Shown here: positions 7,845 through 29,550 of the stretch, piece by piece | Layout of the letters: each line of letters begins with the position of its first letter | How positions within the stretch are numbered: position 1 is the first letter of the stretch | IMG/VR virus record: IMGVR_UViG_3300027513_000027 | Span: 1-45,597 of that record | DNA from: a virus | Strand: one strand, 5' to 3' | DNA length: 45,597 nt | The notes under the pieces: model-generated | Told to the model about the DNA's origin: nothing | The model's input: only the letters and a program-made list of their open reading frames with translations | Databases searched by the model: none | Made by a program: the position numbers and the translations under genes

Positions 7845-8002
7845 GCCTAAGCAAGTTATTTCCCTGCAGGGGCTTGAGAAGGTAACACTCATGTCGCTTA
7901 CTTGTAAAGGGACGCTTCGCTTGGCTCCTACGTCGCCACCCTTGACAAGCGCTCCACTCGCATTCCCTTAAGAGCGCCCCTTGGGGAAAAACTTGACCGG
8001 CC
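7845..8002 (-). repeat. Structured intergenic element, copy A
   Basis: This minus-strand element lies in the leader of the scaffold gene. Stem 1 pairs CAAGTTTTTCCC (7984-7995) with GGGAAATAACTTG (7852-7864). Stem 2 pairs 7976-7980 with 7869-7873. Stem 3 pairs CTTGTCAAGGG (7939-7949 complement) with CCCTTTACAAG (7901-7911 complement). A 57-base core (7896-7952) is identical to copy C at 21076-21132. A short reading frame crossing it is not convincing as a gene. Confidence 0.85.
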
Positions 8003-8093
8003 TGGGAGTAAGAGTGTGTACTGGAACAGGATCAGTGGCGCGCTATTCTGCGCGGCGTAGCGTTTTGGGATCATAGTACAACTCCATTGCTTT

Positions 8094-8108
8094 GGTTAAA
8101 ATTCAACC
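8094..8108 (-). repeat. 15-bp leader palindrome, copy 3
   Basis: Minus-strand core GGTTGAATTTTAACC; the flanks extend the stem to about 9 bp (GCTTTGGTT / AACCAAAGC on the plus strand). It lies about 90 bases upstream of structured element A and 270 bases upstream of the scaffold start. Confidence 0.85.
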
Positions 8109-8162
8109 AAAGTGAATTATGTGTTACTTACGCGCGGGAGGTTTGAGGCACGCCGTGCCGCA

Positions 8163-8420
8163 TTACTCGCTTCTATTCCTTAGCTCAGCTGCATTAGCTT
8201 CAATCTCATGCACTTCAATTAATGAGTTCGGAAGCTCTAGAAAGCGATTAACAGCTTCGGCATTGCCTTGTAGCCTACGCAGAACATCCAAGTCTTGTGC
8301 CTGCTCAAGTTGAGTGCGTATATCCTCGAGCCAGGCTTGCATCTCATTGGTTATGTCGCGCCACACATTAGAATACATAAACTGGCGCATCTCCGTAATG
8401 TTGCTGCGTAACTCACTCAT
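8163..8420 (-). CDS. Small coiled-coil protein next to portal
   Basis: The product is 85 aa, almost entirely amphipathic helix ('WRDITNEMQAWLEDIRTQLE', 'DVLRRLQGNAEAVNRFLELP'). Its ATG overlaps the portal stop (ATGA), so it is coupled to portal synthesis. A capsid assembly or head-fibre-base role is plausible from position. No family recognised. Confidence 0.65.
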   Translation of the reverse strand: MSELRSNITEMRQFMYSNVWRDITNEMQAWLEDIRTQLEQAQDLDVLRRLQGNAEAVNRFLELPNSLIEVHEIEANAAELRNRSE

Positions 8421-10408
8421 GCTACAGCTCCATTTGTAGGCGCACTGTTCATTGCTACATCGAATGGGCCTAGATTGCCAGCTTCTACTTGCTGCTGTAT
8501 TTGCTCATCAGGCATTGTTGCTGGCTGCATCTTGGCAGCAGCTTTATCTAGCTCAAAGGCATCGACGTTTTTGGCACCAGAGTTTTGTGCTATTAACTTG
8601 AAGATCTTTGTAATATCGAATGTTTGCATAAGCACAGGATTCTGGCTAATCATTTGGAAGAGTTGAACCCACGTATCGTTATAGTTGCCACCTGGAATGC
8701 TGCCATCACGAACCAGCAAATCATAAGCAACAAGTATATCACTTGGCTTAACAAGCACCCTATTACCTTCTTGAATATTATAAGCTTCACTGACTGCAGT
8801 GGGCCATTGTCCTGTTGTTTTTACGTAAGTTGGTTCGTCCATGAATTGCTGCGTGTGATAAGCAAACATTGAGCCAACGTCCTGAAGACATTGAATACCT
8901 ACTATTTTGGCAATACGCTCTAGTCGATTGACGGCACCGACGTTAGTACTTTTGAATTCTTGTGCAGTTAAGCGTTCAGGGCCGCCCTGACGTAAGTTAC
9001 CCATTACAGGAGAATCTGTGCCTGCAATTTGCCGCATGAACTCGATTAGGAATGTTACATCCGTTACATTGTTGCGGGTGATATCAGTGATAGTAAGCTG
9101 TTTGAATGAGTTCTCAACTCCTCTACCCCATGCAGGGCGACGTAAGCGTACAATGCCACCTGGAGTGCCCTCAGAAATATCAGCAACATTAATTAGGTAT
9201 GGATCCACTACAAGCACGTCGTTAATTGCCTTTCTCACATTTGCTACGTGTGAGTTGAACATCCAGTCAATCGTCTTCTGCATTCCACTAAGTATCTCAA
9301 TTCGTGAATAACTCACGGGTGAATAGCCGTCAAAGTCAGGCACGGCAACAGTTACGGGATACATATCGTGTATCAGATTAAGTTGCTTTGCACGTATAAT
9401 AACCGCGTCTGCACCTACAGTAAACATCCACTTCTGTGGATACTCATTTGTCCCAAGCTTCCATTGTGACGGTATTAAGTTAACGTACATGTGAAGCAAG
9501 TCAACTGGATCGGATGAGACATTAGATATTGAATTGCTCAACAAAACATCGCTGCGTGAAGGTCTGGGGTAATTGTTAGTGCCAAAGAGACTAGTTGACT
9601 TATTAGTAGCACGTCGTAAATACTGCACATTAAATAAGTCTCCATCTACTTCCTCATCACTAAGCAAATTCATCAAGTTATCTCTGTCTACCCAACCTAC
9701 GTATTGACCACGCTGTACATCATGAAGTGCAACGTTAGGATCAGGTAAGTAGCAATAAGGATCGATATTCTCTAAGGCATTTCCTTCAAATAAAATAGTA
9801 TTTTCTATTACCTTTGATGTGCCACTTTCAATCCACTGGCCTTGCATATTGTAGGAACCTTCAGTACGCATGCGCACCTTCTTGCCACGACGTACTAGCC
9901 ATTGAGGTGCAGTAACGCCGAGGCCATATGCACTTACGTCACGGAAGAGTGTATGTAAGTTAAGTATTACCTTTGTTTTCTGGCAGTGTAAATTAATTAC
10001 TTTTTCCATGAGCGTGGCACCAGCTGCATCTTCTGGGCCTACACCTTCGTAGCGGAATACTGGTTCTGGTGTGAATGCAGCAACTAAATACGCAATTAGT
10101 GTCTCCATTATTGCATAGGTGTAAGGAAATACTATTGAAACCGGCTTGCGTGGATCGTCGTCAAGAACTGCACGTTCCTTGCCGCTAATTGGAATATACG
10201 CTTGCAGTTTTGAGTCAATTTCTTGCCAGGCTGAATGACGCTTTTTGATAATAGAAGATGAGTCCCTAGCGTAATTGTTAAGTTTACCCAATATGAGCTG
10301 ATGCAATGCTGAGCCAGGCTTAAGGTCCATATTATTCGGATACACGTAGCCGTAGTCATTCGTACCATTATCTGTAAGCTCATTTGGATTAGTTATTGTG
10401 TACGGCAT
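8417..10408 (-). CDS. Portal protein
   Basis: The product is 663 aa, the size of podovirus-type portals. It shows typical portal phrasing: an N-terminal helical region ending in 'FPYTYAIMETLIAYLVAAF', the segment 'GVTAPQWLVRRGKKV', and the late conserved stretch 'TGNLRQGGPERLTAQEF'-like (seen here as 'MGNLRQGGPERLTAQEFKST'). It forms the dodecameric ring at the packaging vertex through which DNA enters and leaves. It lies between a fibre-like gene after the large terminase and the coupled coiled-coil gene. Confidence 0.88.
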   Translation of the reverse strand: MPYTITNPNELTDNGTNDYGYVYPNNMDLKPGSALHQLILGKLNNYARDSSSIIKKRHSAWQEIDSKLQAYIPISGKERAVLDDDPRKPVSIVFPYTYAIMETLIAYLVAAFTPEPVFRYEGVGPEDAAGATLMEKVINLHCQKTKVILNLHTLFRDVSAYGLGVTAPQWLVRRGKKVRMRTEGSYNMQGQWIESGTSKVIENTILFEGNALENIDPYCYLPDPNVALHDVQRGQYVGWVDRDNLMNLLSDEEVDGDLFNVQYLRRATNKSTSLFGTNNYPRPSRSDVLLSNSISNVSSDPVDLLHMYVNLIPSQWKLGTNEYPQKWMFTVGADAVIIRAKQLNLIHDMYPVTVAVPDFDGYSPVSYSRIEILSGMQKTIDWMFNSHVANVRKAINDVLVVDPYLINVADISEGTPGGIVRLRRPAWGRGVENSFKQLTITDITRNNVTDVTFLIEFMRQIAGTDSPVMGNLRQGGPERLTAQEFKSTNVGAVNRLERIAKIVGIQCLQDVGSMFAYHTQQFMDEPTYVKTTGQWPTAVSEAYNIQEGNRVLVKPSDILVAYDLLVRDGSIPGGNYNDTWVQLFQMISQNPVLMQTFDITKIFKLIAQNSGAKNVDAFELDKAAAKMQPATMPDEQIQQQVEAGNLGPFDVAMNSAPTNGAVA

Positions 10409-10421
10409 GATTAGCTACTTT

Positions 10422-11072
10422 CTAAATTGCGTATACTATCATCTGTTCGTACAGAGTTTTAGTCACTCCTAAAGGAAATCCAGCAGCTCCAACGAATAAT
10501 CTAATATCTAATCTGTGCGCGCCACCTCCAGAAGCTACAAAACCAGCTGCTGCCCAGTCGAATCCATTAGTAGCATCATGCACTATAACTGGGTACTGTA
10601 GTCCAACTATAGCAGGAGACAAAAATGCTGGAACAAAAGATAGTGCAATAAAATCCATAGTACTATTACCACTTATAAGTGGCAGTGTCAGCATTACTAA
10701 TCTATCTACTTTAACATAAGTTATAGTGCGGGTGTAAACTGTATCGAAGAATCCAGATACTCCTACATCAAAAGTACCAAAAACAAACTTATTCTCAACC
10801 GTAGTGACACGCGGAGTTAATGCAGCCATTTGAGCTTCTAAGGTAGTTACTCGTGTAGTAAGTCCACTTATATCTCCTATTGCATCATCCAGGTCTTGTT
10901 TTCTAACTACGTGAACAGGAGAACTAGGAGCACTTTGAACTACTATCTGCCCATTAGTGGCAATAGCTTGCTGATTATCTGGAGCAATTACTCCTTCCTC
11001 ATCTATGTAAAGTACTGCGTCATCAAAGAGAAATGGTCCAGTAGAACCTAACCATACTTTCTTTACAGCCAT
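10422..11072 (-). CDS. Fibre-like protein with coiled-coil stalk
   Basis: The product is 216 aa. Residues about 60-100 form a heptad-like stalk ('DDAIGDISGLTTRVTTLEAQ', then 'ALTPRVTTVENKF'). The C-terminal 110 residues are a beta-rich globular domain typical of phage fibre tips ('FGTFDVGVSGFFDTVYTRTI'). It may be a head fibre or tail appendage. The unusual place between portal and large terminase is more typical of head-associated fibres. Its start overlaps the terminase stop. Confidence 0.6.
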   Translation of the reverse strand: MAVKKVWLGSTGPFLFDDAVLYIDEEGVIAPDNQQAIATNGQIVVQSAPSSPVHVVRKQDLDDAIGDISGLTTRVTTLEAQMAALTPRVTTVENKFVFGTFDVGVSGFFDTVYTRTITYVKVDRLVMLTLPLISGNSTMDFIALSFVPAFLSPAIVGLQYPVIVHDATNGFDWAAAGFVASGGGAHRLDIRLFVGAAGFPLGVTKTLYEQMIVYAI

Positions 11073-12583
11073 TAAATACGCCCTTTAAAGTTAAGTGGAA
11101 GTTCGTACTCTAATTCAGCGTATTCATCCTCGCTAGTTGGTACGTCAGTTCCATCAGGAACATCGAAGTAACGACCACCAAGCTCCAAAAGCTCTATAAT
11201 ATAAGCAGTAGCATCAGCAACATCTACGAGTCCACTGCGAGGAAAAGAAAGTAGTTGTGCTTCTAGCTTGGCACAATTGTTCTTATTATGATAGATGTAT
11301 CCGTTACGATAATAAGGAGACAATGAGCCTATTCGTTTTATCTTCCCTTTTTCGCCATCTGGTGAGCCTCCTCTAGCACGTAGCCAAATAGGTTCAAATG
11401 AATCCGCTGGTCCACGACGTAGCATCTCGTTCTGAATAGGCTGCTTAATAAATTCTTCGAGACCTGTAACCTCAATACCAACGCGGAATGCATTAAGCCG
11501 TTTACGCATCGCGAACATTTCATCGTACAATTCATTAGGAAAGAATTTTCCTGAAACTATATCTCGTATATAAATGGCAGATGTCGCAAAATCTACTCCA
11601 ATTCCAACTATTGCAGAATCAGCGCTATGCATATTAGCAGTTTTAGCAGGATCAATCACTATATAATTCTCTAGATTTTTCTTGTCTAGCTCTGTCTCTT
11701 CGTAATATTTAAAGTACTCCTGTCTAAAAGAAGCATCTTCAGTTGCTATCGGTAAATTTCTTAGTTCCATATAGAAAACATCTAAGATACCCTTAGCACG
11801 GTGGATTTCTGCCTCGCGCTTTAGCTCTTCTGTAGATATAAGATGAGGTACAAGTGAATTAAAATTGTCGTCGCAAATGTCTAATCGTTGCGAGTACCAA
11901 TCCTCCGATTTAAGTAGTTCCTGCAAGAGTGAATCGTAGTGCTTTAAAGTGTCGAAATAAACTATCTTCCATTTATCTGAATAACGATCTACGCAACGCA
12001 TAAGATCAGAATAAAACCATTGTTTTAGCTTGAATCGGTTATCTGGGTTATCAAGTTCCTCTTTCTTCTCTAAATCATCTACTATAATTAATTGAGGTCG
12101 CGTATTACGGTAAATCAATCCACGTATTTGCTGTCCAGCACCTCTCGGCATCACTAATGTATTACCGAATGCTACCCATGACTGTTTACTAAAAGCCTCA
12201 TCTATTTCGGGATCATCGTAGTTTATTTGAACGCTGCCAAATACCTTCTTAATATATTGATTAGTCATTAATTCACGTTTGATATTTTCGGATTGCATTG
12301 TAGCTACTGTTTCTGAGTTAGAAACATAAAGTATGAATTGATAGTCGCGAAAAAGAATTGCTTTTTGTGCGAAAGCACGAGCAATTGAGGTCTTACCTAA
12401 GCCACGAGGAGCAGCAAAGCATATTTTTTGATGCTTAGTATCAAGAGCTGATATTATATCACGGTGCAAAACAGACCACGGAGTAGAAAAAGCTTCAGGT
12501 AAGAGAGTTTTGCAGAATACACCTGTATTAGTGTAACAAGCAGCTAATACATCTTGTAGTTCGGTAGGAAGTTTCAGAGGCAT
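11072..12583 (-). CDS. terL: Terminase large subunit
   Basis: The product is 503 aa. The ATPase domain has a Walker A-like motif at residues 57-66 (AAPRGLGKTS) and a Walker B-like 'PQLIIVDDLE' near 165. The C-terminal RNase H-like nuclease shows 'NYIVIDPAKT' and, near the end, 'DVADATAYIIELL', giving the acidic residues expected at the nuclease centre. It packages DNA at the portal and cuts the concatemer. The start is one base after the stop of the upstream homing-endonuclease remnant. It appears intact and carries no intein. Confidence 0.93.
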   Translation of the reverse strand: MPLKLPTELQDVLAACYTNTGVFCKTLLPEAFSTPWSVLHRDIISALDTKHQKICFAAPRGLGKTSIARAFAQKAILFRDYQFILYVSNSETVATMQSENIKRELMTNQYIKKVFGSVQINYDDPEIDEAFSKQSWVAFGNTLVMPRGAGQQIRGLIYRNTRPQLIIVDDLEKKEELDNPDNRFKLKQWFYSDLMRCVDRYSDKWKIVYFDTLKHYDSLLQELLKSEDWYSQRLDICDDNFNSLVPHLISTEELKREAEIHRAKGILDVFYMELRNLPIATEDASFRQEYFKYYEETELDKKNLENYIVIDPAKTANMHSADSAIVGIGVDFATSAIYIRDIVSGKFFPNELYDEMFAMRKRLNAFRVGIEVTGLEEFIKQPIQNEMLRRGPADSFEPIWLRARGGSPDGEKGKIKRIGSLSPYYRNGYIYHNKNNCAKLEAQLLSFPRSGLVDVADATAYIIELLELGGRYFDVPDGTDVPTSEDEYAELEYELPLNFKGRI

Positions 12584-12584
12584 A

Positions 12585-13267
12585 TTAAGCTAATCCAATA
12601 TTAGGGGGATTATATACTTTTAAATCCGTATGTAATCGAACGTACTCACGAATTCTTTCCATCTTACGAGAACATCTAAAGTAGAATCCACGCTTAACTG
12701 CACTCCCAATAGAAGGAGAGAATCGCGTATACGGTTGGTAATGCGCCTTCCTACCTCTGTCGGTAGATACTTTACCAACACGTATATTACAACGGTCAAA
12801 TAATGCAGGCACGTATTGCACGAATGGTTTAACTCCTCCATAAGACAGCATGTATGTAGGGTTGACAAAATTCTTAATTAGTATAACTGATCCATCAGTA
12901 TCCATTAAACCCGCTAACATCTCTAGTCGTGCTTCGTAAGAAGCTTCCCATATATAGTCAGGCAGCTTACCTTTGTCGTTAGTTGCATAATACATAAGTT
13001 CAAAAAAATCAGCATCAAGCCAAGCAATTCTATGCACTGGTCGTTTGGAGTTACCTGAAGCATCCTGTCGCATGTAAGGAAAACACAAATCAGAAAAATA
13101 GTTTTTTACTGTCGAATATGCGTAAGCAACTATTTCTTCATCTTGGCATCCTAATCCAACCTCAAGACGTTTTGGATTGCGTGGAGAATAAGCTAAGTAA
13201 CCGTCACCTAACCACGCACCAAAAAATAGCTTAACGGCTCTAGCTCTTTAACTACTTCTGGGTCCAC
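12585..13267 (-). pseudogene. LAGLIDADG homing endonuclease between terS and terL, frame broken
   Basis: A GTG at 13267, 10 bases after AGGAGG, opens 'MDPEVVKELEPLSYF' but stops after about 20 codons. Shifting one base at a run of six T's (minus strand; 13221-13226) restores 'FFGAWLGDGYLAY' and a continuous protein to 12585. The two expected LAGLIDADG motifs are present: 'FFGAWLGDG' and 'LEMLAGLMDTDG', preceded by the typical 'LPDYIWEASYEARLE'. It is about 227 aa when repaired. It could be a decayed gene, a programmed frameshift or a homopolymer read error. The frame from TTG 13088 covers only the C-terminal 167 aa. Confidence 0.8.
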
Positions 13268-13307
13268 AGTAATTAAGCCTCCTATGGTTAGAAAATTGAC
13301 ACAGCAA

Positions 13308-13847
13308 TTAGTCTTCTACTATCAAACCTGCTTCACTTGCAGAAGCTAGTGCACGTAGTTTTATTGCTTCAATATCATCGCGTGTCAAGTGAGTGTTAAC
13401 TGAGGCGATTTTTTTGACCTCGCCAAAGCCAGCGCGACCTAAGTGAACACTTGCATACTTAGCACGAATAGCAATAGGCGCCTCAACTTCACCGCTAATG
13501 ACATCTTCAAGTAGCTTGAGTGCCAGTGGTGCAAACTCGTTAATGCGAGCACCAATATCAATCGCTTCGCTATCAAGAGTCTGGCGCAATGAAAGCAGTT
13601 TCGTTTTAGCAACGGGAGAGTTGCGTAAGTTAGAGACTGTTTGCGGAGTAACACCATGAGCTTCTGCAATGTCAGCATTGGAATGGCCTAGTGCTAGCAT
13701 ACGTAACATGCTGTGGTGATTCTCCCAGAGTGCCTTAACTTCGTAATTGCGCTTCTCAACAAAACGTTTGTCATACAAGTATTTGTTATCAGTTAAGTTT
13801 TCCAGGTGAGAATCACCTGAGTGCTTGTTGTCTGTTGAGTCATCCAT
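13308..13847 (-). CDS. terS: Terminase small subunit
   Basis: The product is 179 aa. A helix-turn-helix lies near residues 50-75 ('ALGHSNADIAEAHGVTPQTV'), followed by a helical oligomerisation region ('LALKLLEDVISGE'), as in small terminases that recognise the packaging start. It starts at the ATG at 13847 with AGGAG 9 bases upstream. It lies upstream of the large subunit in the same operon, separated only by the homing-endonuclease remnant. Confidence 0.8.
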   Translation of the reverse strand: MDDSTDNKHSGDSHLENLTDNKYLYDKRFVEKRNYEVKALWENHHSMLRMLALGHSNADIAEAHGVTPQTVSNLRNSPVAKTKLLSLRQTLDSEAIDIGARINEFAPLALKLLEDVISGEVEAPIAIRAKYASVHLGRAGFGEVKKIASVNTHLTRDDIEAIKLRALASASEAGLIVED

Positions 13848-13865
13848 AAGTATATACTCCTCGTG

Positions 13866-14408
13866 CTAGCATTTGGTGCAAGTTGAACCACGTGTTTCTA
13901 ACAGCTGTCCATCATAGGCTGTTATGTACTCCACTCGGCACGTTGGTGGAGTCTCGCGGTCCATTAGTATCCATAGTACTAGGCTGCTTTGTAGTGTGAT
14001 GCAAAGTGTTCGTCCAAATGCTATTCGTGTTGCCACCTTAATTTGATCGCCATGTTCAGAGTGCTGTTGTTCAATTACTGGCTTATGATCGGGATATTTT
14101 ATCCACGTATATGAGACGGAGTCGTTAGAGAGCTGATAACGCAGTAAAACATCACCTGATGTACATAGTGTAACTCCTACTTCAACTCCTGCGTCTATTT
14201 CTATTACGTAAGCCGGCTTAGTTCCTAAGCAGGATAAGTTTTTGGTCCACAGCTTTTGCTGCTCGGCTGCTTGCTGAAGCTTGGATGAATGTACTCCTAA
14301 ACGCCAGGCCTTAACTTCGTTCCATACTGTAGGTATACTGCCACCTAAAGCTGCAAGGAATGTTGGATAAAGTAGAAGCCATTGCCACCAGCTTGTAGGT
14401 TCGGCCAT
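13866..14408 (-). CDS. First late gene: membrane-anchored protein of unknown function
   Basis: The product is 180 aa from ATG 14408 (a TTG at 14420 would add four residues). One N-terminal hydrophobic segment ('WWQWLLLYPTFLAALGG') is followed by a helix and a beta-rich domain with several Cys, including a C-terminal 'CTKC'. The layout suggests a membrane anchor with an exported domain and would suit a lysis, superinfection-exclusion or envelope role, but no family is recognised. It is the first gene after the only late-strand promoter. Confidence 0.6.
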   Translation of the reverse strand: MAEPTSWWQWLLLYPTFLAALGGSIPTVWNEVKAWRLGVHSSKLQQAAEQQKLWTKNLSCLGTKPAYVIEIDAGVEVGVTLCTSGDVLLRYQLSNDSVSYTWIKYPDHKPVIEQQHSEHGDQIKVATRIAFGRTLCITLQSSLVLWILMDRETPPTCRVEYITAYDGQLLETRGSTCTKC

Positions 14409-14458
14409 AGTATCTCGCAAACGTTTTGCATCAAATATGCTTCAATCATCATACTCAA

Positions 14459-14487
14459 ATTATATCAGTTTTGAGGGCAAATGTCAA
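14459..14487 (-). promoter_or_regulatory. Late-strand sigma70-type promoter with extended -10
   Basis: TTGACA (14487-14482), 17-base spacer ending in TGA, TATAAT (14464-14459): a perfect match to both boxes plus TGn. It is the only perfect promoter found for the late block. ATG occurs at the seventh base after the -10 box, as at three early promoters. Confidence 0.9.
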
Positions 14488-14623
14488 GCGGTTCGCATCA
14501 AATTTTACTCTATTTAACACGCAAATCCATTTTACCATATTAAAAGTTCTTATGTACATTTGTTACTTAGTAATACGATTGATGGAATAAGTTATTCTTG
14601 GCAGCATCTGCCTTGTAAGAAGC

Positions 14624-14652
14624 TTGACATTGAGGCTAAAGTGTGGTATAAT
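14624..14652 (+). promoter_or_regulatory. Early promoter 1, perfect sigma70 with extended -10
   Basis: TTGACA (14624-14629), 17-base spacer ending in TGG, TATAAT (14647-14652). The predicted transcription start coincides with ATG 14659, which opens an 8-codon frame (MKVSANAH) over a small hairpin GTGAG/CTCAC. Confidence 0.9.
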
Positions 14653-14684
14653 TACGGCATGAAGGTGAGTGCAAATGCTCACTA

Positions 14685-14822: not shown

Positions 14823-14843
14823 GTCGTTGAAATCATTGAGCAT

Positions 14844-14872
14844 TTGACAAACTCATAGCGATATGCAACAAT
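14844..14872 (+). promoter_or_regulatory. Early promoter 2 (tandem pair, upstream member)
   Basis: TTGACA (14844-14849), 17-base spacer ending in TGC, AACAAT (14867-14872). The -10 matches consensus at 4 of 6 but has the extended TGn. It shares the unusual AACAAT and the following GTGTGAGC with the next promoter 79 bases on. Confidence 0.7.
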
Positions 14873-18971: not shown

Positions 18972-19117
18972 GCCAGCAAGTTATTCTCCTCTGGAGGTAA
19001 GTGAGGGTATTTCTACAAGAGGGACCTGTCAAGGCGCTAGCGCTGGAGGCACCCTTGACAGAACCCTCTCTCCGAAATCCTTTGGGATTACCTCCTTCGG
19101 AGAAAAACTTGGCCGGC
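18972..19117 (-). repeat. Structured intergenic element, copy B (antisense to neighbours)
   Basis: By its end sequences this copy reads on the minus strand although both neighbours are plus-strand. Stem 1: CAAGTT (18977-18982) with AACTTG (19106-19111), plus GCCAGC/GCCGGC ends. Stem 2: GGAGGTAA (18993-19000) with TTACCTCC (19088-19095). Stem 3: CTGTCAAGG (19026-19034) with CCTTGACAG (19053-19061). Small reading frames across it are shadows. Confidence 0.85.
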
Positions 19118-19210: not shown

Positions 19211-19225
19211 GGTTAAACTTTAACC
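19211..19225 (+). repeat. 15-bp leader palindrome, copy 5
   Basis: Core GGTTAAACTTTAACC; the right flank AAAGGAG is itself the ribosome site of the ATG at 19234, so forming the hairpin would alter access to it. Confidence 0.9.
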
Positions 19226-20635: not shown

Positions 20636-20650
20636 GGTTAGATTATAACC
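20636..20650 (+). repeat. 15-bp leader palindrome, copy 6
   Basis: Core GGTTAGATTATAACC followed by GGAGCA; 10 bases upstream of ATG 20661, with the GGAG acting as ribosome site. Confidence 0.85.
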
Positions 20651-21023: not shown

Positions 21024-21185
21024 GGCCGGACAAGATTTTCTCCCGAAGGGCAATTCTTTGCTGAATTGCGACTGGGCGCTTGTCAAGGGTGGCGACGTAG
21101 GAGCCAAGCGAAGCGTCCCTTTACAAGTAAGCCCATAAAGCAATTAAGCTCTCATTGCCCAAAGGGAGACAATCTTGCTTAGGCC
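21024..21185 (+). repeat. Structured intergenic element, copy C
   Basis: The best-paired copy. Stem 1: GGCC ends, CAAGATT (21031-21037) with AATCTTG (21171-21177) and CTCCC (21040-21044) with GGGAG (21164-21168). Stem 2: GGGCAAT (21048-21054) with ATTGCCC (21154-21160). Stem 3: CTTGTCAAGGG (21079-21089) with CCCTTTACAAG (21117-21127). An extra hairpin CAATTC/GAATTG sits between stems 2 and 3. It ends just before the AAAGGAG of the gene at 21200. Confidence 0.88.
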
Positions 21186-22410: not shown

Positions 22411-22456
22411 AGGGCCGCGCCGATAGTAGTGATTATTACCTTAAGGAGTACAGCAC

Positions 22457-22663: not shown

Positions 22664-22715
22664 GCTTAATCTTACTATAGCCGTGGTTCGGTGAAACTGA
22701 AAGGAGATAACTTAA

Positions 22716-23132
22716 ATGACGCCCGAACAAAAAGAAGCTTTGGCTTCCATGCTTAAGGCACTAGCACCTAACGAGCTGCGTATCATTCAGTACGAGTCCA
22801 AAGGTGGACATAAGTGCTCAAACAGCACTAATCTGACAACTTGTTGTGGTGTCGTGCGTTGTCAAGCGTGTCATATACCTCACTTAAAGGAGAAACATGA
22901 CGTAGCTATATTGCACGCCTACCAAAAGTTCGTGAGCGCAGGATCACTTACATGGCAAGTGCGCAAATACAAAACTCCATACAAAGACAAGGAGAACAAG
23001 AAAGCTCGCACAACACGTGCAAAGAATCCTATTACTAAGCACTTTGATAATCCAGCTGATCTTGCCGACGCAGTTGATGATGACGATTTAGAGCGAGTGC
23101 TAGAAATGCTGAAACGAAAGCTTGGCAAATGA
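22716..23132 (+). CDS. Cys-rich basic early protein
   Basis: The product is 138 aa. Residues about 32-55 hold a Cys/His cluster ('GHKCSNSTNLTTCCGVVRCQ' then 'ACHIPHLKEKH') typical of a treble-clef or zinc knuckle. A basic linker and an acidic C-terminal helix follow. AAGGAG upstream. Probably nucleic-acid-associated; no family recognised. It is followed 12 bases later by the ParB-like gene. Confidence 0.6.
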   Translation: MTPEQKEALASMLKALAPNELRIIQYESKGGHKCSNSTNLTTCCGVVRCQACHIPHLKEKHDVAILHAYQKFVSAGSLTWQVRKYKTPYKDKENKKARTTRAKNPITKHFDNPADLADAVDDDDLERVLEMLKRKLGK

Positions 23133-23144
23133 AGGAGTTATAAT

Positions 23145-23885
23145 ATGAACTTAGGACTATTACGTATAGTAAAAATGAGTGATATTGTATGCGACTTAGA
23201 TACGCGTGCGCGTCAGAGCTATGGAATAATAAGTGATCTTGCCAACTCAATCAATGAGCAAGGCTTGATTCATCCTATAGTGTTGTACTCTCCAAATGGA
23301 GAAGCACCATACACGTTAGTTGCAGGAGCAAGGAGACACCAGGCGTGTCTTAATGTGCTAAAGTGGACAGAAATCTCATGCCGTATTTATAACACGTTAA
23401 TGACTGAGCACGAATTGAAAGCTATAGAATTGCACGAGAATTTAGACAGGAAAGATTTGACCAAGGACGAGGAATCGTACTTACGTGCACAGTTGCATAA
23501 AACACTGGTCGAAATACACGGTCCAAAAATAGCCAAAAGTCCAACTGCACCTGGCCAGTCCGTTAGTGATACCGCTAAACTACTTGGTGTACATCGTAGT
23601 ACGTTACATAGGGATATTAATGCTGTAAAGCAACCTCCGTTCGTGCCAACCTCTCCTCAAAATTTAACGCGTGATGAGTGGACTGCTTATGTGAAGTCTG
23701 GAGGTAAAACTGATAAACCAAACCCTTTGTTGCATGATGCAACAAAGCAACAATGGTCCACTAATTTACGAACCGTATTTATACGCATCGCACAACAATT
23801 AGTTATAAGGGCGCAAGCTGATGCACCGCCTGAAGAATTACGCGAATTGCTGAAGCTGCTTAGTGCTAATATAGAAAGGTCTTGA
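23145..23885 (+). CDS. ParB-like nuclease/DNA-binding protein
   Basis: The product is 246 aa. The ParB/sulfiredoxin domain covers about residues 8-90: 'DLANSINEQGLIHPIVLY', then 'LVAGARRHQAC' (the CTP/phosphate-binding box). A helix-turn-helix near 140-160 reads 'SVSDTAKLLGVHRSTLHRDI'. No catalytic methyltransferase part, unlike its paralog at 29788, with which it shares the N-terminal 170 residues closely. Likely roles are DNA binding, segregation-like or transcriptional control. It ends its operon. Confidence 0.8.
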   Translation: MNLGLLRIVKMSDIVCDLDTRARQSYGIISDLANSINEQGLIHPIVLYSPNGEAPYTLVAGARRHQACLNVLKWTEISCRIYNTLMTEHELKAIELHENLDRKDLTKDEESYLRAQLHKTLVEIHGPKIAKSPTAPGQSVSDTAKLLGVHRSTLHRDINAVKQPPFVPTSPQNLTRDEWTAYVKSGGKTDKPNPLLHDATKQQWSTNLRTVFIRIAQQLVIRAQADAPPEELRELLKLLSANIERS

Positions 23886-23921
23886 ATCAGCCTTAAAATG
23901 CAAAAGCAGTGAAAAAAGGGC

Positions 23922-23950
23922 TTGACAAACGGATTAAAGTGTGTTATAAT
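23922..23950 (+). promoter_or_regulatory. Early/middle promoter before the DNA module
   Basis: TTGACA (23922-23927), 17-base spacer ending in TGT, TATAAT (23945-23950), with ATG at the seventh base after the -10. AAAGTGTG inside the spacer is shared with early promoter 1. Confidence 0.9.
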
Positions 23951-23956
23951 CTCTGT

Positions 23957-24019
23957 ATGATTGGAGGTGGGAACGAAAACTTAATTTCTGAAAGGGCTGC
24001 ACGAACTTATCTCATTTAA
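23957..24019 (+). CDS. Possible 20-aa leaderless leader peptide
   Basis: ATG at the predicted first transcribed base opens 'MIGGGNENLISERAARTYLI' and ends in TAA 22 bases before the next gene. Only its position at the promoter, repeated at other promoters, argues for translation. Confidence 0.3.
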   Translation: MIGGGNENLISERAARTYLI

Positions 24020-24041
24020 CGTATCACACGAAAGGTAATCA

Positions 24042-24599
24042 ATGAAATCCGAGCAAATTAGCGTAAAGACACAGGGCAAGCCAGAGATAGAATTCTCCTA
24101 CGATTTCTCTGAGACGCTTCCAGAAGCGGTGAAAACGTACGGTGAGGATGACGTACATGAACTCTTCAAGCGTGCACTTACAATTGCTGCTCAAGCAAAT
24201 GCACGCAAGATGCTAGCAGCTGGCCTAACACCTGAGCGTATTCAGATAGAAATGAGCAACTGGAAGCCCGGCGTTTCTGTGCGTTTGACTTCTTCTATTA
24301 AGACAGTTGATCCGATGAAAGTTATTAGTGAGAACTTCGATGATTGGACTCCTGAACGCCAGGAAGAAATCCTACGGCTTATTCAGGAGCGATTCGCAAA
24401 GCGTGGCGAGCCAGCAGCTGCTGCTCCAGTTGAGAATGGAACTCCTGAGCCTACAGCAGAAGAGATTGCCGCGATCACTGAAGGAGTAAATGGTGATACT
24501 CAAGAGTCAACGACGCAGACTGTTGAAGCTGCTGCCTCAACTGAGACTCCAGCGCATGACTATAATCCTGCAGAAGGACGCGGACGGCGTAATCGCTAG
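24042..24599 (+). CDS. Abundant early/middle protein with acidic disordered tail
   Basis: The product is 185 aa. The first 110 residues form a compact alpha/beta region ('DVHELFKRALTIAAQANARK', 'QIEMSNWKPGVSVRL'). The last 70 are Glu/Thr/Ala rich and end in a basic GRGRRNR. First conventional gene behind a perfect promoter, like the gene at 15047. It may bind DNA or a host factor. No family recognised. Confidence 0.65.
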   Translation: MKSEQISVKTQGKPEIEFSYDFSETLPEAVKTYGEDDVHELFKRALTIAAQANARKMLAAGLTPERIQIEMSNWKPGVSVRLTSSIKTVDPMKVISENFDDWTPERQEEILRLIQERFAKRGEPAAAAPVENGTPEPTAEEIAAITEGVNGDTQESTTQTVEAAASTETPAHDYNPAEGRGRRNR

Positions 24600-24614
24600 C
24601 AACATAATTGCTGC

Positions 24615-24629
24615 GGTTAAACTTTAACC
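24615..24629 (+). repeat. 15-bp leader palindrome, copy 7
   Basis: Core GGTTAAACTTTAACC with GCTGC and AAAGTG flanks; 53 bases upstream of the start at 24683, so the ribosome site is separate here (AGGAAG). Confidence 0.9.
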
Positions 24630-24682
24630 AAAGTGATCTGCCGGATGCTCAATGGTCCGGCAGTCACACTTAGGAAGATATT

Positions 24683-25036
24683 TTGTCTAGATTACTGTAT
24701 ATTGCTGGTCCATACTCTTCTGCCGACAGTAAACAGAAGCGTTCTAACATCGAAGCAGCAATAAACGCAGCTGTATGGTGTGCACGTAATGGTATATACT
24801 ATTTCTGTCCTCACATGAACAGCGCGTATTTTGACGACTTGGCACCAGACGTACCTGTAGAATTCTTCTACAATATGGACTTACGTATTGCAGAGGTGTG
24901 TACTGCAGTATTTATGCTTCCTAATTGGGAACAAAGTAAAGGAGCAACTGAAGAATATCACTTTTTTGCTCGCTCAAATAAGCCCGTATTCTACTGGCCT
25001 AATGAGCAGGAACTATTACTGAAGTGGTACCACTAA
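24683..25036 (+). CDS. DUF4406-like nucleoside deoxyribosyltransferase-fold protein
   Basis: The product is 117 aa from TTG 24683 with AGGAAG upstream. Family hallmarks: 'LLYIAGPYSS', 'NIEAAINAAVWCARNGIYYF', 'CPHMN', and the end 'LPNWEQSKGATEEYHFFARS', where the conserved Glu of 'GATEE' is the candidate catalytic residue. Members resemble nucleoside 2-deoxyribosyltransferases and may act in base exchange or salvage. Substrate unknown. Confidence 0.85.
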   Translation: MSRLLYIAGPYSSADSKQKRSNIEAAINAAVWCARNGIYYFCPHMNSAYFDDLAPDVPVEFFYNMDLRIAEVCTAVFMLPNWEQSKGATEEYHFFARSNKPVFYWPNEQELLLKWYH

Positions 25037-25045
25037 GGAGAATAA

Positions 25046-25396
25046 ATGAGTGACAACAAGAAAGTGTATATCGTGGCTAAAGGATTCCACGATTTTGCTG
25101 CAGCCGAACAACATGGCAAGCTGATATTCCTATCTGATGAGCCAGTTAACAGATCAGCTGTCAGTAATATACTGCGGCAATTCATACCTAAAATGGCAGA
25201 CAGTAAGGAGGATGACTTTATCGTTATAACTGGACTATCAGTGATGTGCTCAATAGCATGCGTGATTTTCGCAATGAAACACAAACGCTTAAATTTGTTG
25301 CTGTTCGATGCTGCAAGTGACAAGTATATCAAACGAAGCGTGTTGTTGGACTCAATACTACAAGTGGAGAAAGAAGTTGACAGAGTACTACAATAA
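25046..25396 (+). CDS. Protein of unknown function in DNA module
   Basis: The product is 116 aa, alpha/beta alternation suggesting a small Rossmann-like or flavodoxin-like domain ('KKVYIVAKGFHDFAAAEQHG', 'DDFIVITGLSVMCSIACVIF', 'NLLLFDA'). AAGGAG lies before ATG 25046, 10 bases after the DUF4406 stop. Its 3' end overlaps the start of the HNH gene. No family recognised. Confidence 0.55.
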   Translation: MSDNKKVYIVAKGFHDFAAAEQHGKLIFLSDEPVNRSAVSNILRQFIPKMADSKEDDFIVITGLSVMCSIACVIFAMKHKRLNLLLFDAASDKYIKRSVLLDSILQVEKEVDRVLQ

Positions 25397-25868
25397 TAAT
25401 CAGGTTAGAATCCAGCGATTTATGCTAGTGATGCATGAGCCTGATGTAGAACAGGAATTCTTAGAGCGGATAGTAAAAACTAGCACGTGTTGGTTGATGA
25501 TAGGAGGTGGATTATATCCTTCTTTTAGGAACGTACATGGCCACGTAGCATCTTGGCTAATACATTACGGTCCTATTCCGGCAGGAATGTTAGTGCTACA
25601 TAAGTGCGATATATTCCACTGTATTCGGCCACAGCATTTATATCTAGGAACCAAGTCTGATAATGCGAAGGATGCTTATAGAAGAGGCCAAATGAAGCAA
25701 GAAAGAGCGCTCGATGGAAACAAGTTTGAAATGGCACGCTATGCTCACGTAGAAATCGGACTCACACAGAAGCAAGTATCACAGCTATTTAATGTAGGAG
25801 TGGCATCAGTCGGAAGAGCACTAAATAGCTCAAAGCGTGGAAGATATACTAAGAGGACTAAGAAATGA
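25377..25868 (+). CDS. HNH endonuclease (HNH_3 type)
   Basis: The product is 163 aa from TTG 25377, chosen because GGAG lies seven bases upstream and the family needs the N-terminal strand. It has 'PAGMLVLHKCDIFHCIRPQH' with the double His/Cys pattern and 'LYLGTKSDNAKDAYRRG' after it, the classic phage homing-endonuclease core, followed by a small helix-turn-helix-like tail ('LTQKQVSQLFNVGVASVGRA'). It overlaps genes on both sides by a few bases. Confidence 0.8.
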   Translation: MTEYYNNNQVRIQRFMLVMHEPDVEQEFLERIVKTSTCWLMIGGGLYPSFRNVHGHVASWLIHYGPIPAGMLVLHKCDIFHCIRPQHLYLGTKSDNAKDAYRRGQMKQERALDGNKFEMARYAHVEIGLTQKQVSQLFNVGVASVGRALNSSKRGRYTKRTKK

Positions 25869-26842
25869 AGTTGTTAGATATTCTGCCTGAGCAGGATACT
25901 TGGAGCGTAATTGATCCGTCAAAGTTATCAGTATACATGTCATGCCCTAGAAAATTCTTCTATGAGCACGTGTTACAATGGAGAGAGGATTATACTAACA
26001 ACCATCTCTGGTTTGGTTCGTGTTGGCACCTGGCAGTCGAGCACTTGTTAAATAATAACTACTCGACTGAGTCTATAGAAGAAGCGTGTGTTATGTTCTA
26101 CAATTCATATCGCTTACAATTGGATAGTGAATCTGATGGTCTTTTCGTGCCAAAGGATCCACAAAATGCTATGCAAACGCTGGTCAAATATGCAGAACGA
26201 TTTCGTACTGATGTTCGTGACTATAACGTACTCGGTACTGAAATTGGCGGCACAGTTCTGATTGCACCTGATTCTCCGATGTTCTTCAAGATTGACGCAC
26301 TCCTGCAACGTAAGCGTGATGGAAAAGTAATTTGTTTGGACCACAAAACTTCGCAGCGTCGAATGAATAACTGGTCAGAACAGTGGTTACTAAGCACGCA
26401 GATGCTCACCTACTTACACGTTCTCTACTGTTTATTCGGTGAATCAGATGAGGTTGGAGGAATACGTGTGCGTTGCAGCTTCTTCTACAAAGCTAAGCCA
26501 AGCGAGTTTGACGAAGCAATAGTCGAGAAGAGCCTAAATCAGATGCAATCATGGCTCACAAGTCAAACTAATTGGTACGACTCACTTCAGTACGACCTGA
26601 AATTTCTACTCGAATCGGAAAGCACTGAAAGTGCAGCTATGCGCTCATTTCCTATGAATGAAAAAGCATGCTTTAATTACGGTAGGAAATGTGCGTACTT
26701 TGACTTCTGTAATGCGTGGAGTAATCCATTAACTAGGTGTGAGCAAGTACCAATGGGCTTCAAGCATGAAGTTTGGGACCCACGTACGGATTCGGGTGCT
26801 AAACAATTTATTGACTTAACCAAGGAGCAAGTAGAAAAATGA
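25865..26842 (+). CDS. PD-(D/E)XK nuclease with predicted Fe-S cluster (RecB/Cas4-like)
   Basis: The product is 325 aa. Motifs: 'SKLSVYMSCPRKFFYEHVL' near 18-36, 'FKIDALLQR' (catalytic Asp) near 140, 'VICLDHKTSQ' (D-x-K) near 155, then 'QMLTYLHVL'. Four Cys (one in SCPRKF and three in CFNYGRKCAYFDFC) suit a 4Fe-4S site as in AddB/Cas4-type exonucleases. It probably resects DNA ends for recombination or replication, next to the Sak4-like ATPase. Confidence 0.85.
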   Translation: MKLLDILPEQDTWSVIDPSKLSVYMSCPRKFFYEHVLQWREDYTNNHLWFGSCWHLAVEHLLNNNYSTESIEEACVMFYNSYRLQLDSESDGLFVPKDPQNAMQTLVKYAERFRTDVRDYNVLGTEIGGTVLIAPDSPMFFKIDALLQRKRDGKVICLDHKTSQRRMNNWSEQWLLSTQMLTYLHVLYCLFGESDEVGGIRVRCSFFYKAKPSEFDEAIVEKSLNQMQSWLTSQTNWYDSLQYDLKFLLESESTESAAMRSFPMNEKACFNYGRKCAYFDFCNAWSNPLTRCEQVPMGFKHEVWDPRTDSGAKQFIDLTKEQVEK

Positions 26843-27000
26843 GTGAACCTATATGCCCTAATTGCAATGGTACTGGTAAAGAAGACGTAGTTATTATTAT
26901 AGCAGGCAAGAAGCACGACAAATGCTCGCTGTGTGATGGCAGTGGCATAGCAACGGATGATGAAGTAGGTGAATTTACACAGTACTTACAGGAGGAATAA
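26839..27000 (+). CDS. DnaJ-type zinc-finger small protein (53 aa)
   Basis: ATG 26839 overlaps the nuclease stop (ATGA) and opens 53 codons. Two CxxCxGxG knuckles are present ('CPNCNGTGK' and 'CSLCDGSGI'), the DnaJ zinc-finger signature, here without a J domain. Its last codons contain the GGAGG of the following gene. It probably assists a protein partner in the recombination operon. Confidence 0.75.
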   Translation: MSEPICPNCNGTGKEDVVIIIAGKKHDKCSLCDGSGIATDDEVGEFTQYLQEE

Positions 27001-27798
27001 ATGCCACTTGATGCACGTATCGAAGCTGAGCGTTTACGTAACTTATATAAGGAAGACCCAAAGCAAAGCTCGTTCAATTTATTACTGATGGGAGAAACTG
27101 GAACGGGGAAAACTTTTATTGCACGTACAGCTCGTAAGCCTGTTCACATAGATAGCTTTGATCCTGGTGGAACACTGTGCTTGCGTGAGTGGATTATGAA
27201 AGGCGATATAGTAGCTGATACTCAGTACGAGAATGAAGATCCTAAATCACCAAAGATGTTCTCTGAGTGGTGTAAGAACTTTGAAGCACGAGAGAAGGAT
27301 AAGTACTTCGAGAGCTTCGGCACATACATGCTGGATTCAAGTACGCTATTCGCTGAAGCAATTATGAACTCTATTCTAAAGGCTGCTAACTTAACAGGGC
27401 AGGCACCAAGATTTACTCATGATTACGTGCCACAAAAGGTACTGATTCACAATTGGTTCAAACGTATACTTGCATTGCCATGTGATGTAATTGTCACGGG
27501 TCATATTGAGCCAATTAAAGACGACGTATTGGGCAGTGTTGAATGGCGCTTCATGACCACCGGCAAAGGTGCAACTATTATTCCTCTGCTATTCACTGAG
27601 AAGTGGATTGCTCACACTAAACTATCAGCTAGTGGTGTTGAGTATCAGATACTCACTCAAAGAACAGGCAAATATGTGGCTAGTAGTAGTATTGCTGCAG
27701 GCAAGCTGGATACATTTGAAGTACCAGATATTAAGAAGATTTTAGCTAAGTGTGGATGGCCAACTACTGATAAACCCAGCTTGTTTGGTAGCAAGTAA
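27001..27798 (+). CDS. Sak4-like RecA-fold ATPase (AAA_24)
   Basis: The product is 265 aa. Walker A 'LLMGETGTGKTFIA' at residues 28-41, Walker B-like 'TYMLDSSTLF' near 111-120, then 'CDVIVTGHIEP' (sensor-like strand). This is the AAA_24/Sak4 phage group linked to single-strand annealing recombination, usually with an SSB-type partner, as found here at 28254. GGAGG precedes ATG 27001. Confidence 0.85.
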   Translation: MPLDARIEAERLRNLYKEDPKQSSFNLLLMGETGTGKTFIARTARKPVHIDSFDPGGTLCLREWIMKGDIVADTQYENEDPKSPKMFSEWCKNFEAREKDKYFESFGTYMLDSSTLFAEAIMNSILKAANLTGQAPRFTHDYVPQKVLIHNWFKRILALPCDVIVTGHIEPIKDDVLGSVEWRFMTTGKGATIIPLLFTEKWIAHTKLSASGVEYQILTQRTGKYVASSSIAAGKLDTFEVPDIKKILAKCGWPTTDKPSLFGSK

Positions 27799-27920
27799 TG
27801 AAACTACGTGAAGTTAGACGTGCGATAATGGAAAGGGATTTAACACACAAGCAGGAATTGTTGCTAGGAGCAGCCGCTCTTTTAGCGGCGTTCATATTCA
27901 TGCTATGGATAGGAGTATAG
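27798..27920 (+). CDS. 40-aa single-span membrane protein
   Basis: ATG overlaps the ATPase stop (TAATG). Basic head ('KLREVRRAIMERDLTHK') then one hydrophobic span ('LLLGAAALLAAFIFMLWIGV') ending the protein. Coupled to the next small gene. The head-span layout suits an inner-membrane anchor or pinholin-like peptide; function unknown. Confidence 0.55.
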   Translation: MKLREVRRAIMERDLTHKQELLLGAAALLAAFIFMLWIGV

Positions 27921-28085
27921 GTGGATCACGACGAGCACTTAAGGATTCATGATGAGCTGTTTAAGGATCTAGCATCATTGAATACTAGAATGGTAGTAGC
28001 TATAGAACGAATCGACAAATCATTAGAAATAGTTATACAGCTGTTACAAGAACGGAGAAATAACGACAGCAGCAATGGAGTTTAG
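27921..28085 (+). CDS. 54-aa coiled-coil peptide
   Basis: GTG 27921 directly follows the membrane gene stop and opens 54 codons of amphipathic helix ('FKDLASLNTRMVVAIERIDK' and so on). The packing suggests the two small genes act together. AGGAG lies inside the end of the previous gene. No family recognised. Confidence 0.5.
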   Translation: MDHDEHLRIHDELFKDLASLNTRMVVAIERIDKSLEIVIQLLQERRNNDSSNGV

Positions 28086-28086
28086 T

Positions 28087-28257
28087 ATGGAGCTTGCAGA
28101 AGAAACCTATAAACTAACGCGGCAATTATACCGTGATGCAATGCGGCTAGTAAATGGTGCGACAGACGATAGCACTAAGAATATAGCCCTTGTTAGAAAG
28201 GAGCATTTATTAAGATTACGCGATACGCTACAAGAGCTAAGAAGGACTAGAAAATGA
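28087..28257 (+). CDS. 56-aa helical protein
   Basis: ATG 28087 is preferred over ATG 28075 because GGAG lies six bases upstream and overlap with the previous gene is avoided. Charged helical sequence ('LTRQLYRDAMRLVNGATDDS'). It overlaps the next gene by 4 bases. No family recognised. Confidence 0.5.
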   Translation: MELAEETYKLTRQLYRDAMRLVNGATDDSTKNIALVRKEHLLRLRDTLQELRRTRK

Positions 28258-28808
28258 TTGAGGAATTAGTAATGGCACGAAAGAATAGAAGTGCACATCC
28301 AACTGACGCTGATTTTCGTGGCGATCAGCAACAGGAACCTAAACTCATGAGAGGTCCGCAAGAGGATGAAGAAACTAAACCAAGTGTAATTAACAGGAGC
28401 GGCAAAATGCCTATTATTGATTTCACTGAATATGATCTCGACAATCTGCCAGAGCTGAAGATACTTCCTGCTGGCACTGAAGCAAAGCTACGCATACTCG
28501 AAGTAAGTATAAAGCCTGACAAGAACAGCGATAATATGCTGCAAATTCGGCTCGACGTTTCTGATGAGCCGTTGGTTAAAGAAGTATACTGGCAGTGCCA
28601 TCTGCCTACTAGGAACATGACTGAAAAGCGAGTAATCATGCTCAAGAGATTTCTCTCTGAATTCTGTGAGGCATTCGAGATAGACAAAACAGCAAGCAAC
28701 GATACGAGTGAGTGGTTAGGACGTGAAGGATGGGCAATACTAGGAGTACGAAGCGACCAAAAGTACGGTGATAGTAACGAGGTAAATAGGTTCCTAAAGC
28801 AACAGTAA
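28254..28808 (+). CDS. Putative ssDNA-binding protein (DUF669-like)
   Basis: The product is 184 aa. After a charged tail the domain 'LPAGTEAKLRILEVSIKPDK' and 'MLQIRLDVSDEPLVKEVYWQ' read like an OB-type strand set, followed by 'MLKRFLSEFCEAFEID'. The C-terminal 'KYGDSNEVNRFL' is typical of the DUF669/phage SSB partners of Sak4. An alternative start is ATG 28272 (GAGG upstream). Role: coating single strands for the Sak4-like ATPase and polymerase. Confidence 0.65.
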   Translation: MIEELVMARKNRSAHPTDADFRGDQQQEPKLMRGPQEDEETKPSVINRSGKMPIIDFTEYDLDNLPELKILPAGTEAKLRILEVSIKPDKNSDNMLQIRLDVSDEPLVKEVYWQCHLPTRNMTEKRVIMLKRFLSEFCEAFEIDKTASNDTSEWLGREGWAILGVRSDQKYGDSNEVNRFLKQQ

Positions 28809-28811
28809 TTT

Positions 28812-28956
28812 GCATATTCCTCCTGGTGACTTAATTATATCACTACAGGTCACTAGTGCTGTCAAGGGACGCTTCGCTTAAACCCTTGACAGCGTGACCT
28901 TTCGTGAAAAGATGTTGGTCACCAGGGGGAAAATGCCTTTAAGGCAAGACCCGGCC
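28812..28956 (-). repeat. Structured intergenic element, copy D (antisense to neighbours)
   Basis: By its edges this copy reads on the minus strand between plus-strand genes. Stem 1: GCATATTCC (28812-28820) with GGAAAATGC (28928-28936). Stem 2: CCTGGTGAC (28822-28830) with GTCACCAGG (28918-28926), 9 bp perfect. Stem 3: CTGTCAAGGG (28859-28868) with CCCTTGACAG (28883-28892), extended by GGTCAC/GTGACC. Its loop contains GCGAAGC, known as a very stable DNA mini-hairpin. Confidence 0.85.
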
Positions 28957-29018
28957 CAACAGCATCGGTCTTATAAGGGCAGCACGGTGCGAGCTGCATC
29001 AGTGCCACAACCTGCTGC

Positions 29019-29033
29019 GGTTAAACTTTAACC
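29019..29033 (+). repeat. 15-bp leader palindrome, copy 8
   Basis: Core GGTTAAACTTTAACC with GCTGC and ACAGGAG; 19 bases upstream of ATG 29053 and 62 bases after element D. Confidence 0.9.
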
Positions 29034-29052
29034 ACAGGAGTGAGAGCATGCT

Positions 29053-29280
29053 ATGAATAAGCCTTATACACACAGGATAACATTTGAGGTAACTGATCAG
29101 CAATATAACAAGCTCAAGCAGCACCTGGAGCATGGCCAGCTTAAGCAAGTCTTCAGTGTAATAGTGGATGATGCAATAGTTATGCTCGATGAGTTTGGCC
29201 AATACTTTGTGCTCGCAATGCTTAGCCGCGAGGTGAGTTACAAGCGTACAGTTCAAGACTACATGAGGAGAGTGGAATGA
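29053..29280 (+). CDS. Small RHH-like protein
   Basis: The product is 75 aa. 'THRITFEVTDQQYNKLKQHL' then 'FSVIVDDAIVMLDEFG' fits the strand-helix-helix of ribbon-helix-helix regulators. Ribosome site AGGAG in the palindrome flank. It could be a regulator acting on nearby palindromes, but nothing in the sequence shows this. Confidence 0.5.
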   Translation: MNKPYTHRITFEVTDQQYNKLKQHLEHGQLKQVFSVIVDDAIVMLDEFGQYFVLAMLSREVSYKRTVQDYMRRVE

Positions 29281-29289
29281 AAGTGCTCT

Positions 29290-29304
29290 GGTTAGATTTT
29301 AACC
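29290..29304 (+). repeat. 15-bp leader palindrome, copy 9
   Basis: Core GGTTAGATTTTAACC followed by AAAGGAG. A 64-codon frame (29277-29471) starting in the palindrome runs into element E and is not accepted as a gene; element E and the start at 29558 follow. Confidence 0.9.
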
Positions 29305-29396
29305 AAAGGAGATTCATGCGTGCTATAATCCCAAAGCGTAATGGCCCGAGCTTGCGAGGGAAGGTGATACGGTCCAAGTACAGACTCCCACTTCCC

Positions 29397-29550
29397 GAGC
29401 CGACAAGACTTTTTCCGGCAGAGCCTACTCTTGCTTCCAGCAAACGAGCAGGTTGTCAAGTTGCCCCGTAGGGGTCGAACGTAGTGAGTCTTGACAAGCA
29501 GCGCAGTGCAGCATCATAATCCCTAGGCTCTGCAAGGAAATAGGATTGCG
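29397..29550 (+). repeat. Structured intergenic element, copy E
   Basis: Stem 1: CTTTTTCC (29409-29416) opposite GGAAATAG (29536-29543). Stem 2: AGAGCCTA (29420-29427) with TAGGCTCT (29524-29531), 8 bp perfect. Stem 3: TTGTCAAG (29453-29460) with CTTGACAA (29490-29497). It lies in the leader of the gene at 29558, 93 bases after palindrome copy 9. A CCCC-GTA-GGGG hairpin sits in the stem-3 loop. Confidence 0.85.
29491..29520 (+). promoter_or_regulatory. Possible promoter overlapping stem 3 of element E
   Basis: TTGACA (29491-29496), 18-base spacer, CATAAT (29515-29520). It lacks the TGn that all perfect promoters here have, and the -35 is part of a structural arm, so it may be incidental. Confidence 0.3.

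Follow-up and report, generated by a model that had tools for sequence, protein, structure and literature searches.

The hairpin repeats dispersed through this phage genome may be single-stranded-DNA promoters of the sigma70 type, working much as Frpo/ssi elements do and scattered beside a GGTTAAA-N-TTTAACC palindrome, a reading to which we give about an even chance. The fold, the co-variation of its arms, the promoter consensus, the bubble and the spacing are computed features of the repeats, and they suggest that these sites let the host's RNA polymerase begin transcription on phage DNA in single-stranded form.

A Dispersed Hairpin Family in SU10-like Podophages

The window is the whole stretch of DNA analysed, the 45,597 nucleotides (45.6 kb) of IMG/VR record IMGVR_UViG_3300027513_000027, which carries a 163-bp repeat at its ends. 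Its capsid and portal proteins match SU10 families, it encodes a PolA with a UDG domain, and its genes diverge at ~17 kb, and the skew reaches its minimum near 14-17 kb. By capsid comparison, the nearest annotated phage is Desulfofustis phage LS06-2018-MD01 (50%), in which searches with the element profile and the palindrome pattern gave nothing convincing, and a scan of genome contigs with the ParB-methyltransferase protein identified no host. A sequence-only reading of the window had listed six copies of a structured element. All six align at the places it gave, and a profile built from them finds each with an E-value of 3e-24 or better; the interval it assigned to the feature, 7845-29550, leaves copy F outside, even though its text lists that copy, and copy D is present as a shortened rod of ~28812-28936. 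The palindromes lying 5' of the copies were absent from that reading.

7845..8002, minus strand: copy A, rod hairpin; -35-like TTTACA at 7903-7908, -10-like TACCTT at 7879-7884; leads to gene 7035-7823 (GTG start); palindrome at 8094..8108
18972..19117, minus strand: copy B; -35 TTGACA at 19027-19032, -10-like TACCCT at 19004-19009; no evident same-strand gene start behind it, divergent gene past the palindrome; palindrome at 19211..19225
21024..21185, plus strand: copy C; -35-like TTTACA at 21120-21125, -10-like TAAGCT at 21145-21150; followed by an RBS and an ATG at ~21200; nearest palindrome at 20636..20650, ~380 nt away with a gene between (the exception)
28812..28956, minus strand: copy D; -35 TTGACA at 28860-28865, -10 TATAAT at 28834-28839, 20-nt spacing that includes a bulge of four nucleotides (ACTA); palindrome at 29019..29033
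29397..29550, plus strand: copy E; -35 TTGACA at 29491-29496, -10-like CATAAT at 29515-29520; followed by an RBS and an ATG at ~29558; palindrome at 29290..29304
42042..42194, minus strand: copy F; -35 TTGACA at 42094-42099, -10-like TAAACT at 42071-42076; leads to a 1717-aa gene, 36862-42015; palindrome at 42260..42274

Profile searches brought 15 further copies from relatives in IMG/VR, which are uncultivated SU10-like podophages, so that 21 distinct copies are known: six in this phage, nine in G008, two each in G002 and G029, and one each in L007 and G006. The element is thus dispersed one to nine times per genome, at sites that differ in part between phages, and it is dispensable in the group, since it is absent from relative G004 (47.8 kb) and scarce in G002 and G006. 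Most copies immediately precede a same-strand RBS. Forward copies form the majority, while B, D, G6, G8_53 and probably G8_262 are reversed; behind B, D, G6 and G8_53 no gene is evident, and G8_127 lies between convergent genes.

When the fetched relatives were scanned with a structural descriptor that is independent of the profile, the known copies came back and nothing else was convincing; the few remaining low-energy matches had no TGTCAA/TTGACA pair at their tips. In IMG/VR a pattern scan returned 33 stretches, mostly due to chance, the real ones being the known phages and two copies in 3300027675_000133, one of which is repeated in 3300027722_000081. In a second scan strong folds came only from copies of the same phage group, and neither scan of IMG/VR gave a copy outside it. 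Rfam families yielded no match at gathering score, in agreement with the sequence-only reading, and a search by E-value of the region of copies D and E gave only chance-level matches.

One Rod with Co-varying Arms

Folded singly, each copy forms one long rod that runs, in order, through P0, P1, a small loop, the variable P2, a bubble, P2.5, a 3-4-nt loop, P2.6, the apical P3 and a variable tip. The three nested stems described earlier do fold in every copy, as parts of this single rod, which also has P0 as its outer stem and, between stems 2 and 3, P2.5/P2.6. P1 is often CAAGTT..TTTCCC with GGGAAATAACTTG, and the arms of P3 are CTTGTCAAG/CTTGACAAG. Taken one at a time, the six copies of the window have fold-stability z-scores of -1.8 to -7.8 against dinucleotide shuffles. 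The third stem had been thought constant and mostly is, the exceptions being G8_70, with another sequence, and A, C, L007 and G8_53, which carry a C.T mismatch (TTTACA). The claim that the second stem varies while its partner changes to match holds across the enlarged family: the P2 helices, chosen by eye, show 20 different 5' arms in the 21 copies; their position in the fold stays the same throughout, and the partner matches in every case.

Because sequence alignment misplaces the P2 arms, we used an arm-swap test, which is independent of the choice of helices, instead of a covariance model. The 5' and 3' halves of the same copy pair with a mean energy of -52.2 kcal/mol under RNA parameters, against -33.3 (sd 6.6) when the halves come from different copies, and with -28.1 against -14.8 kcal/mol under DNA parameters; the own half is the best partner in both directions for 15 of the 21 copies, a test in which copy D was anchored wrongly so that its own score is weakened. 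The minimum-energy folds of about half of the copies have a partly closed bubble, owing to a few weak pairs. The co-variation of the arms, the further copies in relatives and the lack of an Rfam match support selection on a folded single strand. Counts of G.U and A.C pairs and the fold energies of the two strands were uninformative for telling RNA from DNA, as Escherichia coli 6S RNA and tRNAs give about the same values; G.T pairs were more frequent in Frpo by the same kind of count.

A Promoter Signature in the 3' Arm

The 3' arm of the rod holds a sigma70 consensus, with the -35 element in the apical stem and the -10 hexamer in the internal bubble. The hexamers were assigned by eye, and the same columns are prominent in a plain alignment that predates the promoter idea. 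A-11 and T-7 are present in all 21 copies and T-12 in 15, while the -35 element reads TTGACA in 16 copies and TTTACA in four. Averaged over the 21 copies under RNA and DNA parameters, the unpaired probability is 0.12-0.18 at -14 and 0.21-0.28 at -13, rises to 0.88-0.89 at -11 (above 0.5 in 19-21 of 21 copies) and falls to 0.03-0.04 at -1. The predicted bubble thus begins at -11, is open to -4, is closed by -1 and is bordered by duplex on both sides, a modelled profile close to that of a transcription bubble.

Along the linear strand of the 3' arm the two boxes lie 17-21 nt apart (17-18 in 14 of 20 copies, 19-21 in the other six), while on the opposite 5' arm, the template side, the distance is 15-17 nt in 16 of 18 machine folds made with RNA parameters, because the long-spaced copies bulge out their surplus nucleotides; those with 20 nt loop out ACTA or ATTA. 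By this near-constant facing arm, the strand as folded in the models would have the geometry of a promoter. Of the four copies spaced by 20 nt, three have a perfect TATAAT preceded by TG. The ordinary early promoters of the same phage are strict: five TTGACA-17-TATAAT sequences, each with TG and matching the consensus at 12 of 12 positions. Loose linear spacing, as in the rods, is therefore not typical of this phage's promoters. Given the bubble profile, the facing-arm spacing and the strict 17 nt of the ordinary promoters, we think that the folded strand is what selection acted on, and the 21 natural variants point to the bases that matter, namely A-11, T-7 and TGTCAA.

The Palindrome and Neighboring Structures

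The palindrome lies 57-100 nt 5' of the rod in 20 of the 21 copies, counting the one at 29290 for copy E. Complete relatives have about 7-14 palindromes each, and the window has eleven intergenic ones, at 3724, 5465, 8094, 16304, 19211, 20636, 24615, 29019, 29290, 42260 and 43967. They often overlap or just precede the RBS of the next gene; since they also occur alone right before start codons, the palindrome is probably an operator or promoter part in its own right, with the hairpin as a companion. The two ParB-like proteins of the genome are our guess as candidates for binding it.

Several other features were noted in these genomes. At 28812-29550 of the window a small gene (~29053-29281) lies between two palindromes and the outward-pointing hairpins D and E, and G008 has a similar arrangement at 25570-26416. 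Copies A, E and F are entered from the palindrome by short open reading frames, in frames that vary among copies. In G002, G004 and G006 palindromes are followed by other structured intergenic stretches of 200-300 nt (L050:9065-9365; L054 near 8990 and 18245) with the recurring motifs CTCCGAAAGGG, GTCGCCAACA, GTTGGATG and GGCTCCGAGC, in which no promoter consensus was found by eye and no match in Rfam. G004 also carries an int-alpA RNA (RF02996; L054:11214-11281, minus strand), and short tandem-like repeats with 33/66-nt spacing occupy 44421-44728 of the window, within gene 43989-45434.

Proposed Mechanism and Alternative Explanations

We propose that a sigma70-type promoter would take shape once one DNA strand is left single-stranded and folds back. 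Its duplex -35 element would come from the apical stem, with TTGACA in the 3' arm and TGTCAA in the 5' arm, and its ~16-bp spacer from the middle stems; the internal bubble would supply a -10 element pre-melted from -11, and P2, P1 and P0 the downstream duplex. The host RNA polymerase holoenzyme would bind and initiate near P2's inner end, reading the 5' arm as its template; transcription would leave the rod into the 5' flank of the folded strand. From forward copies the RNA would be antisense to the upstream gene and usable as a primer for the complementary strand; from the reversed copies it would cross the palindrome into the divergent gene. If forks leave the skew minimum, the coding strand that carries most copies would be the lagging-strand template, and RNA from most copies could for this reason prime the complementary strand. 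A 400-aa DUF3987/primase-like protein, in which Pfam shows no separate primase domain, would leave a little room for another priming route.

The sequence-only reading had left the choice between RNA and single-stranded DNA open while favoring RNA. Its conclusion that a folded strand is under selection stands; the promoter consensus, the predicted bubble (-11 to -2) and a spacing that is right only when folded point instead to single-stranded DNA recognized by host RNA polymerase. Sigma region 4 recognizes TTGACA in B-form duplex, and sigma region 2 captures A-11 and T-7 when they are single-stranded; since the rods pair the former and keep the latter invariant, we prefer DNA over RNA as the acting molecule. 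That molecule, the binding of RNA polymerase, the RNA start site and the use for priming or for expression are what we infer from the computed features. Several observations count against a folded promoter: it would transcribe away from the RBS that most rods immediately precede; the 14 copies with 17-18-nt spacing could serve as plain duplex promoters; some relatives have few copies or none; and weak pairs partly close the bubble in about half of the copies.

The position beside the RBS is what a leader or an ordinary promoter would show. One alternative is a structured leader or stand-alone RNA, transcribed from the palindrome region and acting as a put-like antiterminator, an RNase III site (such processing sites occur between T7 genes) or an mRNA stabilizer. 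About two thirds of the copies have a palindrome on one side and, on the other, the RBS of a gene that runs in the same direction, the arms co-vary, and the top-strand fold is slightly the more stable in 15 of 21 copies. A leader RNA leaves unexplained, however, why TTGACA and the invariant A-11 and T-7 should stand in one arm with a bubble starting at -11; it does not suit G8_127 or the copies with no evident gene behind them, and no promoter was predicted by a scan near the palindromes of D and E. We regard it as unlikely, yet a serious contender. We are somewhat more skeptical of an ordinary duplex sigma70 promoter of the downstream gene, lying inside inverted repeats of other purpose such as a cruciform or a repressor site. 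It would account for consensus boxes at 17-18 nt in most copies, for gene starts ~40-60 nt downstream in most of them, and for the TG-preceded TATAAT of three 20-nt-spaced copies, as if compensating, but the 19-21-nt spacing of six copies departs from the strict 17 nt of the phage's other promoters, duplex DNA would have no use for a bubble at -11 or for a 5' arm of nearly constant length, and some copies have no downstream gene.

Two further explanations seem much less probable. A transcribed rod could mimic an open promoter, capture host RNA polymerase and so shut down host transcription as 6S RNA might, and the terminal stem, central bubble and closing stem are indeed the 6S layout; we nevertheless hold this to be improbable, as the 6S model (RF00013) is unmatched in the window and, even at E up to 10, in four relatives, no 6S RNA is known to carry a -35/-10 consensus, and most copies are embedded beside an RBS. 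That the rods are mobile or recombining hairpins, REP/MITE-like or attC-like and with no regulatory role, we consider very improbable. The sequence-only reading had suggested an independent or mobile element, and the one to nine copies per genome at partly different sites, with sub-types common to different sites and phages (A and C have 57 identical nt in common), agree with it; against this no mobility gene, target duplication or sharp ends were seen, the integron attC terminal boxes (RYYYAAC/GTTRRRY) are not conserved at the rod ends in two alignments inspected by eye, and the promoter consensus would be left unexplained.

Comparison with Known Systems

A hairpin repeat with the geometry of the phage rod and a different sequence occurs in Amycolatopsis, with 53-84 copies in each of four genomes (contigs L172-L251 are from Amycolatopsis and Umezawaea; an example is L172:1857-1911, minus strand). 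It has a core CTTGTCAAGGCATCTTTCCCGCCTTGACAAG, a co-varying outer stem, then a bubble with CACAATC and a closing stem CACCCCGA/TTCGGGGTG. The search that found it asked for a stem and ANAATC and left bubble and closing stem free; ACAATC stands at the same place in 22 of 28 distinct copies, from a set meant to be free of the -10 constraint that may overlap loci of the constrained scan. A tentative extension, which we think rather doubtful, is that folded sigma70 promoters active as single-stranded DNA form a general, dispersed class that double-stranded-DNA tailed phages use for RNA-polymerase priming or strand-specific transcription; this repeat would widen the class beyond conjugative plasmids.

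Hairpin promoters are known from another podophage, N4, whose virion RNA polymerase promoters are hairpins of 5-7 bp read by the phage polymerase, whereas the rods are long and of sigma70 type. 6S RNA resembles them as a rod with a central bubble mimicking an open promoter and differs in acting as RNA and in having no known -35/-10 consensus. At the M13 minus-strand origin and the single-strand origins of rolling-circle plasmids, host RNA polymerase reads folded single-stranded DNA and makes a primer, as proposed for the rods; these origins occur once per genome, in genomes whose replication passes through full-length single-stranded DNA, while the rods are present in several copies in double-stranded-DNA phages.

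The closest parallel is Frpo of the F plasmid, a single-stranded stem-loop that reconstitutes -10 and -35 elements and on which early expression in recipients depends (PMC9849209); thousands of homologues occur in plasmid leading regions (PMC11541004). Folded by the procedure used for the rods, Frpo2 of the F plasmid also gives one long imperfect hairpin. Frpo/ssi elements (F, ColIb-P9) and the phage rods are alike in being long imperfect hairpins of one strand within which both promoter elements are rebuilt (for the rods, in predicted folds), and in occurring in several intergenic copies per element. They differ in setting: Frpo lies in leading regions upstream of the genes it drives, whereas the rods, of ~150 nt, lie in tailed phages away from any conjugative leading region and mostly in opposite orientation to genes, only the reversed minority having a gene in the direction of folded transcription. 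With blastn, copy C had no match among phages and copy A none among plasmids including the F plasmid, a comparison that covers part of the known Frpo elements. The earlier judgment that the element belongs to no nameable class therefore holds at the level of sequence, where Rfam and 6S are unmatched, but its putative mode of working parallels Frpo/ssi. Single-stranded-DNA promoters are already known from conjugative plasmids and filamentous phage; here they would form a multi-copy, co-varying family in double-stranded-DNA podophages. If the reading is right, the life cycle of such a phage would include a functional single-stranded stage, and host RNA polymerase would have a second route to initiation on phage DNA.
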